Source: Azoarcus olearius (lineage in GTDB: Bacteria > Pseudomonadota > Gammaproteobacteria > Burkholderiales > Rhodocyclaceae). Taken from it: a stretch of DNA of 64,000 nucleotides. The notes beneath the pieces are model-generated. The model was not told the DNA's origin, ran no database searches, and saw only the letters and a program-made list of their open reading frames with translations. Position 1 is the first letter of the stretch. The number at the start of each line of letters is the position of its first letter. Positions 1,551 to 11,557 of the stretch are shown one piece after another. The position numbers and the translations under genes were made by a program. The stretch lies in contig NZ_CP016210.1 in assembly GCF_001682385.1 (NCBI RefSeq), positions 3,472,001 through 3,536,000 on the forward strand, given 5' to 3'.

Positions 1551-1812
1551 TCCCCTCCCCTTCAAGGGGAGGGTTAGGGTGGGGATGGGGTCAGCGCCGG
1601 GCGGACTATGGCGCCTCTCCCGGACCGGCCACTGGTAAGGGAGGAGTCGGGCGTAGTGAGCGCTGAATTCAACCCCATCCCCACCCCTACCCTCCCCTTG
1701 AAGGGGAGGGAGCAAATCGGCCGCCCCCGGAGTCTCCGCTTCGCTTCGCCGCTCCGGCGGCGCAGAGCAGTGCTCTGCGACACCCCGCCTACGCCCCCTT
1801 GAAGGGGAGGGA
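1551..1812. repeat. Intergenic inverted-repeat block (REP/BIME-like), three units
   Basis: The 321 bp between the convergent araC-type and sirB2 genes hold no gene but do hold repeats. Unit A at 1551-1591 has the core CCTCCCCTTCAAGGGGAGG followed by a GGGTGGGGATGGGGT tail. Unit B at 1671-1711 is almost its reverse complement, so A and B form a large inverted repeat with a loop of about 79 bp. A third, shorter core lies at 1793-1812. A separate perfect inverted repeat with arms CGCAGAGCA/TGCTCTGCG lies at 1761-1779. The same A/B arrangement recurs inside norD at 9871-9973. Because it lies between convergent genes it may also end transcription from both sides. Confidence 0.8.
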
Positions 1813-9445: not shown

Positions 9446-11557
9446 ATGGAAGAAGCGGTCGGCAAGCTCTGGCACCGCCTCGTCACCCGCGCCGCCGGCG
9501 GCAGCCATCCGGAAGCGGCAGTGACGCTGAAGGCGGTCGAACGGCGCGTCGGCGTGGTGTTCCGCGCGCTCGGCGGCGACGGCGGCCTGCGGGTGGCCGC
9601 GGCAACCGAGGACGAGCATGGCGCGCGACGGAGCTGGCTGGCGCGCGTCGCCGGCAGCGGCGAGAAGATCGCGCGCGCGCGGCTGGACGAGAACACGCTG
9701 CGGCTGCCACCGAAGATCGAGGTGTTCGCGGATGCGGGGCTGAATCGGGATTTGTATGTGTGGCTGGGGGCGCTGGCGGGGGCTTGGGTGGAGGTGGGGA
9801 AGCGCCGCGCAGGCGCTCCGGATACCGGAGAAGCCCCGAAGCCCCACAACGATAGAGCCGCGCGGTACTGTCCCTCCCCCTTCAAGGGGGAGGTGAGGAG
9901 GGGGATGGGGTTGGAGCTTGCACTGTCGCTTAACCCCATCCCCACCCCACCCCTCCCCTTGAAGGGGAGGGGGCAAGACCGCGCGGTAATCGAGCGTAAT
10001 CGCGCCCCCATCGGTGGAGAGCCGTCCGCAGCAGATCGAACTCCGTCCCTGTCCCAACTCAACCCCGAACTCCACCTCAACCAACTCGCCACCCTCCACC
10101 TGCTCACCCGCTGGCCCGGCCTCGCCGCCAGTTACCGGCGCCTCCTCGTCGCCACCCTCGCACTCCGCCCCGACCCGGCCAGGCTTCCGCCTGCCGAGGC
10201 CGAGCGTGAGCGCGCGCTGCGACGCGCCCTGATCCAGCCCGGCAGCATCGACCTCCTGCCCGACGTGCCGCCCGGCACCCTGGCCGCCTGCCCGGTGCTG
10301 CTGTGGCTGGCGCCGCCCCCGGCCGCCAGCGCCGACAGCCCGGCTCCCACCCGCCAGCACACCGACCACGCCGCCTCAGCCACCGCCAACAACGACGAAG
10401 AACGCCGCGCCCATCGCGCCGAGCGCGTCGACACCCCGCAGCAGAAGCACGGCCTGCTGATGCTGTTCCGCGCGGAAAGCCTGTTGTCGGTGGCGGAGTT
10501 CATCAAGCTCGACCGCAGCACCGACGACGATCCCGACCCCGACGCCGCCTCTGCCGCGGCCGGGCTCGATCACCTGTCGCTCGCGCGCGATGGCGAGCGC
10601 GTCGCCTCCAAGGTGCGCTTCGACCTCGACCTGCCCTCCGCGGCCGAGGACGACGTGGTGCTGGGCGACGGCATCGCGCTGCCGGAATGGGACTACCGCA
10701 AGAACCTGCTGCGCGAGGACCACGTGCGCCTGCTCGAACTCGCCGCCAACCCGGCCGATCCGCGCGCCGCGCCGGCGCCGCTGCCGCCGCGCTTGCGTCG
10801 CGGGGCGCGCCGGCTGCAGCAGCAGTTTGCCGCGCTGCAGCCGGCGCGGCGCTGGATCAAGGCGCAGGCCGACGGCAGCGAACTCGATGTGGACGCCGCG
10901 GTGCGCGCCGCCACCGACCGCGCCTGCGGCCGCCATCCTTCGGATCAGCTGTGGCTGTCGCTGGAGCGGCGCGAGCGCGACCTCGCCTGCCTGGCGCTGG
11001 CCGACCTGTCGCTGTCGACCGACAGCTGGGTGTCGAGCGAGGCGCGCGTGATCGACGTGATCCGCGACAGCCTGCTGCTGTTCGGCGAGGCGCTGGCCGC
11101 CACCGGCGACCGCTTCGCGCTGTGCGGCTTCTCGTCGGTGAAGCGCAGCCAGGTGCGCTTCCACCGCCTGAAGGACTTCGACGAGCGCTTCGACGACCGC
11201 ATCCGCGGCCGGGTGATGGCGATCAAGCCCGGTTACTACACCCGGCTGGGCGCCGCCATCCGCCACGCCACCGCGCTGCTCGAACCGCAGCCGGTGCAGC
11301 GCCGGGTGCTGCTGATCCTGTCCGACGGCAAGCCCAACGACCTCGATCTGTACGACGGCCGCTACGGCATCGAGGACACCCGCATGGCGGTGGCGGAAGC
11401 GCGCCGCCGCGGCGTACTGCCCTTCTGCGTCACCATCGACCGCGAAGGCGCCGACTACCTGCCCCATCTGTTCGGCCCGGCCGGCTACGCGGTGATCCGC
11501 AAGCCGGAGGAACTGCCCGCCCGGCTGCCGATGTTCTACGCCCAGCTCACGAGGTGA
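9446..11557 (+). CDS. norD: NorD, von Willebrand factor A-domain NO reductase activation protein
   Basis: A 703-residue protein. The N-terminal part is NorD-like (VGKLWHRLVTRAAGG, DAGLNRDLYVWLGAL). The C-terminal VWA domain has the MIDAS motif DLSLSTDS at about residue 520, followed by PGYYTRLGAAIRHA and LSDGKPNDLDLY. With NorQ it activates NorB. Residues about 115-200 are unlike NorD: they include a translated copy of the dispersed inverted repeat (SLNPIPTPPLPLKGRGQ) and low-quality flanks, after which NorD-like sequence resumes at ELHLNQLATLHLLTRWPGLA. The reading frame stays open, so the protein may tolerate an inserted linker. The Dnr-like gene follows after 2 bp. Confidence 0.93.
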   Translation: MEEAVGKLWHRLVTRAAGGSHPEAAVTLKAVERRVGVVFRALGGDGGLRVAAATEDEHGARRSWLARVAGSGEKIARARLDENTLRLPPKIEVFADAGLNRDLYVWLGALAGAWVEVGKRRAGAPDTGEAPKPHNDRAARYCPSPFKGEVRRGMGLELALSLNPIPTPPLPLKGRGQDRAVIERNRAPIGGEPSAADRTPSLSQLNPELHLNQLATLHLLTRWPGLAASYRRLLVATLALRPDPARLPPAEAERERALRRALIQPGSIDLLPDVPPGTLAACPVLLWLAPPPAASADSPAPTRQHTDHAASATANNDEERRAHRAERVDTPQQKHGLLMLFRAESLLSVAEFIKLDRSTDDDPDPDAASAAAGLDHLSLARDGERVASKVRFDLDLPSAAEDDVVLGDGIALPEWDYRKNLLREDHVRLLELAANPADPRAAPAPLPPRLRRGARRLQQQFAALQPARRWIKAQADGSELDVDAAVRAATDRACGRHPSDQLWLSLERRERDLACLALADLSLSTDSWVSSEARVIDVIRDSLLLFGEALAATGDRFALCGFSSVKRSQVRFHRLKDFDERFDDRIRGRVMAIKPGYYTRLGAAIRHATALLEPQPVQRRVLLILSDGKPNDLDLYDGRYGIEDTRMAVAEARRRGVLPFCVTIDREGADYLPHLFGPAGYAVIRKPEELPARLPMFYAQLTR
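9871..9973. repeat. Dispersed inverted-repeat element inside norD
   Basis: Unit A at 9871-9912 and its near reverse complement, unit B, at 9932-9973 are the same sequence family as the intergenic block at 1551-1711 (GGGGATGGGGT tail; AAGGGGAGG core). The loop here is only about 19 bp. Smaller hairpins lie just upstream at 9801-9817 and 9817-9829. The whole block is read through in frame by norD. Confidence 0.85.

Follow-up and report, generated by a model that had tools for sequence, protein, structure and literature searches.

A probable triplex-motif repeat pair lies in frame within norD of Azoarcus olearius, in a family of copies flanked by a switch in GC skew

The window analysed in this work is the whole stretch of 64,000 nucleotides at G000:C1:3472001-3536000 of Azoarcus olearius (G000; GCF_001682385.1, contig NZ_CP016210.1; genome of 4.45 Mb), a denitrifier of the Azoarcus/Thauera group. 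G001, G002 and G003 are other genomes of the same genus, and G002 represents the sister species. Genes were called by a predictor trained on GC by codon position. The product of the insert-bearing open frame (Table 1) was assigned as NorD from the gene order norC-norB-norQ-norD and from homologue alignment. Its one Pfam match is a VWA domain (residues 551-666), the NCBIfam search of NorD gave no match, and its nearest named relatives are the NorD proteins of Thauera, Parazoarcus and Azoarcus. Within norD lies an element of 99 bp which reads CCTCCCCCTTCAAGGGGGAGG...GGGGATGGGGTT-spacer-AACCCCATCCCC...CCCTCCCCTTGAAGGGGAGGG, and its half-units match those of the intergenic reference copy. The norD frame stays open across the element, which is translated as SLNPIPTPPLPLKGRGQ. 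The initial annotation had claimed that the A/B inverted-repeat pair of the 1551-1711 block is also found in norD, that the insertion kept the frame and that NorD-like sequence resumes behind it. All of this was borne out, the last point by homologue matches that run over residues 1-113 and then over residues 206-703. The element is also predicted to fold, with z values of -5.4 (+) and -6.0 (-) as RNA and -4.9 as DNA. A 10-bp direct repeat, CCGCGCGGTA, brackets it at 9858-9867 and 9979-9988, possibly as a duplicated target or by chance, CCGCGCGG itself being palindromic.

Table 1. Positions of the norD element, its parts and flanks, and of the further copies discussed (window positions unless a contig is named)
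Feature	Position	Strand	Remarks
norD open reading frame, 703 aa, insert-bearing	9446..11557	+	open frame, Pfam VWA, homologue alignment, gene prediction
Extra stretch of NorD, residues ~114-205	9785..10060	+	element-free NorD has there a short native linker only; contains the peptide stretch SLNPIPTPPLPLK
Element: half B (+) and half A (-), inverted, round a unique spacer	9873..9971	.	nhmmer match, model positions 1-98
Half B	9873..9912	+	8/8 triplets; pattern of 39 half-units
Half B, stem CCTCCCCC	9873-9880	+	followed by loop TTCAA
Half B, purine stem GGGGGAGG	9886-9893	+	followed by loop TGA
Half B, third strand GGAGGGGG	9897-9904	+	followed by ATGGGGTT
Spacer	9913..9931	.	arm-side reverse complement GCAAGCTCC common to the norD copy of G002, inverted there
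Half A	9932..9971	-	8/8 triplets; commonest type, 65 units; read on -: stem CCCTCCCC, purine stem GGGGAGGG, third strand GGGTGGGG
G-rich flank in norD	9585..9784	+	GC skew +0.26; third codon positions +0.40; mean of 107 element-free NorDs -0.10
C-rich flank in norD	10061..10260	+	GC skew -0.36; third codon positions -0.52; mean of 107 element-free NorDs -0.11
Intergenic reference copy between convergent genes; both halves of type A	1553..1710	.	flank skew +0.23 / -0.33
Lpd locus			element between lipoyl and pyridine nucleotide-disulphide domains, in frame
AceF locus			element between lipoyl and E3-binding domains, in frame
Formate dehydrogenase alpha subunit (FdhA) locus			element between ferredoxin and molybdopterin parts, in frame
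CzcA-type RND pump	G000:C1:3323156-3326636		three units in one loop between two pump-family blocks, in frame

Each half-unit is laid out as stem, TTSAA, stem, 3 nt and third strand. With the 8-bp stem and loops of 5 and 3 nt, 8/8 triplets can form in 113/114 half-units of A. olearius and in 51/51 of the sister species. In these same half-units (113/114 and 51/51) the third strand mirrors the purine stem, each A facing an A or a T. Three variants of purine stem/third strand were seen in A. olearius, namely GGGGAGGG/GGGTGGGG (65 units), GGGGGAGG/GGAGGGGG (39) and GGGGAAGG/GGATGGGG (9), and across them, as read from the letters, the third strand changes along with its stem; shuffled stem/third-strand pairings gave a mean of 0.45 and a maximum of 0.63. 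Each stem variant is a separate lineage of units, three in all, so this covariation counts as few events. G/C-rich intrastrand triplex motifs (TM, earlier 'PIT') were described by Holder et al. (2015) as always intergenic in E. coli (PMC4666352). On its sequence, the element very probably is a class II intrastrand-triplex motif pair of the TM/PIT kind. Its blocks are compatible with a class II triplex (G*G-C, A*A-T, T*A-T), with the stem in the range of 6-15 and the loops in that of 1-6 nt, there are many closely similar copies per genome with a patchy presence among relatives, and inverted A+B pairs are the usual, though not the sole, arrangement. The trait of being always intergenic, which is part of the E. 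coli description and no class definition, does not hold, as 5/100 loci lie within genes.

The core CTCCCCTTSAAGGGGAG was found 4 times in the window with at most two mismatches, against 0 expected from 100 dinucleotide shuffles. The genome search for this core that the initial annotation had called for gave 80 matches with at most one mismatch in A. olearius (0 for a backwards control pattern), 44 in G002 and 0 in both G001 and G003. A profile search of the analysed stretches gave 100 loci in A. olearius and 48 in the sister species, and the half-units of the four genomes of the genus number 119 (G000), 53 (G002), 0 and 0. In the family, half-units are present in 22 of the 68 sampled genera, mostly in 1-8 copies, with expansions in G000, G002, G086, G112 and G062; moreover, two genomes from other families contain the exact core 82 and 15 times. 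No Rfam family matches the element, the hits being sub-threshold hairpin matches, and the core was not found in the literature searched. By comparing the 30 loci carried by both species, the arrangement in A. olearius is of the A/B kind at 24, A-A at 4 and unclear at 2. At about 10 of 23 shared element sites the spacers are unrelated between the two species, and the orientation is opposite at 4. Single half-units and solo cores are common among the copies. Together with the inversions and the unrelated spacers at shared sites, the solo cores suggest loss, inversion and replacement of copies where they stand. The element had been taken at first for a mobile or spreading one; the patchy copy number and the occupied and empty sites agree with this, and it is from them that we infer its movement.

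The copies cluster on contig C1, with about 25 loci at 3.32-3.48 Mb and about 7 loci at 3.49-4.45 Mb, and the cluster is common to G002. At 1712-1810, in norD of G002 and at several A. olearius loci, half-units harbour a nested second repeat, GTCTCSGCTTCGCC...GCAGAGCAGTGCTCTGCG...CGCCCCCTTGAAGGGG, right beside the palindromic core, and the query 1712-1810 gave 99 matches in the analysed A. olearius sequence. In the unrelated genome G517 (loci L255-L303), the G-rich third strands of the half-units often face outward, not inward.

Coding sequence makes up 88% of the analysed sequence and 5 of the 100 loci lie in genes, which points to strong removal from genes. All five are in frame (NorD, AceF, Lpd, FdhA and a CzcA-type pump), and a scan of the four besides norD placed the element between Pfam domains or domain blocks in each. 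The fdhA site is element-free in G002. In the CzcA-type pump the element pieces add roughly 100 aa to the loop, and the locus carries an element in G002 too. Between genes, convergent junctions are favoured (24/95 with an element, 72/527 overall) and divergent ones avoided (5/95 and 78/527). The number of open frames per element is 2.3/6 vs 4.1/6 in random DNA; thus the elements are not built for translation, and the idea that they fit genes by being open in all frames was ruled out.

The GC skew around the copies was measured with everything element-like left out. The left 250 bp are G-rich (G 0.39 and C 0.27 beside the element) and the right 250 bp are C-rich, a mirror-symmetric switch which is gone by 300 bp and leaves total G+C unaltered. 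The left skew exceeds the right at 88/91 loci (Mann-Whitney 7e-46 vs random sites). The switch is present at convergent, tandem (both directions), divergent and intragenic loci, third codon positions included, and the skew is much weaker at element-free junctions, by which an origin in convergent gene ends was ruled out. The third-position skew of the last 20 codons is +0.35 for genes that end near an element, vs -0.08 for other genes. In norD, the left-right skew difference is 0.61 in A. olearius and 0.57 in the sister species, vs 0.01 +/- 0.07 in 107 element-free genes, the orthologous flanks of G002 being no independent replicate of the A. olearius skew. All 36 switches of 0.5 or more in 715 kb of A. 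olearius, and all 27 in 774 kb of G002, are at an element or core, a count conditional on stretches that were chosen around elements. At a threshold of 0.4, unoccupied G-to-C switches are fewer than those of the reverse kind, and no surplus of unoccupied switches was found in these stretches of either genome. In hosts of other genera the skew has the same direction in G517 (23/28) and G062 (9/10); of two lower-GC hosts, G086 (2/7) does not have the same direction and G274 (5/7) is unclear. E. coli REPs, taken as a control, gave a left-right difference of 0.07, from only 11 loci in 300 kb. Single half-units have the skew on both sides whichever strand they are on, so simple one-sided stalling does not fit; a one-sided polymerase-stall model was unsupported by the replichore test as well. 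The skew is an exchange of G for C that lacks an A/T component, and is therefore not matched by plain deamination (C-to-T).

We lean slightly towards the skew being a consequence of element residence rather than of target choice. At 17 sites where G002 lacks the full pair, a core remnant being left at 4, left-flank differences with G in A. olearius and C in G002 number 131 vs 75 of the opposite kind (p 1e-4); where both species carry the pair, they are unbiased (83/84). The right flank alone shows no clear bias at the sites occupied in A. olearius only. Sequence identity between the two species drops near elements. The alternative is that elements insert at existing G-rich-to-C-rich switches, so that the skew is a landing signal and no scar. 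In the element-free fdhA of G002 (L204:2804-5686 (-), L332) the linker looks natural, yet the skew is complete (0.32 vs 0.33 in the occupied A. olearius gene), and most of 17 other genomes have an fdhA skew near 0. This gene, a former site or a target yet unused, favours target choice or former occupancy. Furthermore, some of the skew persists at true empty sites in G002 (0.14 vs 0.22, p 0.013), and the shared sites with unrelated spacers look as though hit repeatedly. Against the landing signal, strong switches are confined to elements and cores in both genomes with no unoccupied surplus, the 107 element-free NorDs have no skew at the site, and left-flank substitutions at the sites occupied in A. 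olearius only run as a scar predicts, the right flank not doing so clearly. Pre-existing target switches are in our view rather unlikely, and former occupancy could explain both the skewed fdhA and the residual skew at empty sites. For the scar, we tentatively propose that resident triplex-motif pairs may drive a mirror-symmetric C/G exchange over about 250 bp on each side, strongly enough for synonymous codons of host and neighbouring genes to be rewritten, and that the scar may outlast the element.

Besides A. olearius, only G002 has the insert in NorD, in the same linker and in the opposite orientation; its copy also carries the second, nested repeat. The opposite orientations and unrelated outer flanks would agree with independent insertions into one linker, for which there is a precedent in recB, hit repeatedly at one site in two Xanthomonas species (PMC3733652). 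On the other hand, the norD spacers of the two species are related once one is inverted (score 0.48 vs a 99th percentile of 0.40), and the 15-mer GCAAGCTCCAACCCC at the arm junction occurs once per genome in the analysed stretches of both, each time in norD. Two separate insertions are therefore doubtful, and one old insertion, since inverted and remodelled, would fit at least as well.

How the copies spread was considered in the same way. A link of their spread to replication or repair rather than to a transposase is possible, and we would not put it higher than that. A miniature element (MITE) mobilised by an ordinary IS transposase, with duplication of the target site, would account for the inverted ends and for the direct repeat CCGCGCGGTA that flanks the norD copy, but no constant duplication is visible at nine pairs of occupied and empty sites, single half-units and solo cores are common, and a parental IS was not found in the sequence read, so that this origin is improbable. 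Still less probable is a REPIN/BIME moved by a RAYT (Y1 HUH) transposase. The copies do resemble REPs (PMC3733652), in that an asymmetric palindromic unit is arranged in inverted pairs, most of which lie between tandem or convergent genes. However, no Y1/RAYT transposase (PF01797) was found in the four genomes of the genus, the control search being positive in 5/14 named genomes, and the GTAG or CGTC tag is missing at the stem foot in the consensus of a 17-sequence alignment.

For the NorD protein, the homologues of G001 and G003, like those in the rest of the family, have no insert between the two matching blocks. The stretch has about 92-93 aa in A. olearius and 98 aa in G002, and 5-60 aa (median 9) in 107 other NorDs. 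Hence the insertion exceeds the 33 codons of the palindromic pair, and it occupies a linker that varies naturally in length. In the AlphaFold2 model of NorD (mean pLDDT 61), residues 124-204 have a pLDDT of about 31 and lie between confident helices at 97-121 and 207-222. Outside the insert, the proteins of A. olearius and G002 are 94% identical with a dN/dS of 0.16, as expected of purifying selection between the two species, and within it the identity is 32%. The initial annotation was thus right to speak of an added linker, since the reading frame is intact, purifying selection acts on the remainder of NorD and the prediction for the insert is an unstructured loop. It had also said that homologues sharing these residues, with no match to genomic repeats, would count against it; the residues are absent from homologues and repeat matches were found. 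The insert most probably is a tolerated linker insert without a selected role. That it is a conserved functional NorD segment merely resembling the repeat, as the open frame and purifying selection on norD might suggest, is refuted, and deserves almost no credence, by its absence from the family's NorDs except that of G002, where 68% of aligned insert residues differ, and by the same DNA at about 100 further loci, chiefly intergenic.

The observed copy number, pairing, triplex-compatible sequence, presence or absence between species, in-frame place in interdomain linkers and mirror-symmetric skew switch are likely best explained overall by triplex-motif pairs that are tolerated in linkers and act as fragile points. 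We hypothesize that the copies spread without a gene of their own and that those in genes would survive only when in frame and in a disordered linker. In NorD, the additional ~80-90 aa would then form a loop of little consequence. Each copy would be a fragile point in the DNA, as a cruciform, a hairpin or a single-strand triplex, and repeated breakage, stalling and repair at it could cause copies to be gained, lost, inverted and replaced. These events together would most likely bias substitution, with C lost and G gained on the strand leading to the element, on each side. The left/right symmetry of single half-units argues for a symmetric process, such as palindrome breakage with resection on both sides, rather than for one-sided stalling.

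In-frame insertion of palindromic repeats is already known from REPs, Rickettsia palindromic elements and QMITEs. REPs with GTAG/CGTC were reported in ORFs, and in Thauera and Rickettsia conorii their clusters encode 43-82 aa (PMC3733652). They share with the present element the in-frame palindromic repeats within genes, some as dimers, and the hits at nearly the same position of recB in two Xanthomonas species, but here there is neither the GTAG/CGTC tag nor a RAYT gene in the genus. The Rickettsia elements (RPE-1 and others; PMC3733652) are likewise in-frame, translated palindromes in unrelated genes, of which there are five here; they differ in hosts and probably in sequence, and here just 5% of the loci are genic. 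In Coxiella burnetii, QMITE1/2 (PMC5896051) are likewise dispersed and non-autonomous; some copies lie in frame in ORFs, and other elements target them, but QMITE2 leaves recognisable direct repeats and no constant ones were seen here. What this work adds is the skew signature, which is simple and strong, and the probable identification of an in-frame element as a triplex motif; the latter would tie in-frame palindromic repeats to a motif class described until now as intergenic. If the skew is a scar, the proposed destabilisation of bacterial genomes by triplex motifs can be measured at single bases, and the odd codon usage within norD and close to gene ends is explained; a landing signal would instead point to the way in which triplex motifs spread.

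The closest comparison is with the TMs of E. coli, which have a 3-nt second loop (TTA or CCG), form inverted repeats of type A and type B and are reported to mark unstable loci, and for which Holder et al. saw no stable triplex in vivo (PMC4666352). The present element differs from them in its shorter 8-bp stem, in an A moved between types, in the A+B or A+A arrangement round a unique spacer at most loci, in the five in-frame loci and in the flanking GC-skew switch, the word 'skew' being absent from the TM paper. It shares with them the pyrimidine stem, the purine stem, the antiparallel third strand and the short second loop (TTA, CTG and others), and also the many near-identical copies, the inverted A+B units, the patchy presence between close relatives and the unstable surroundings.
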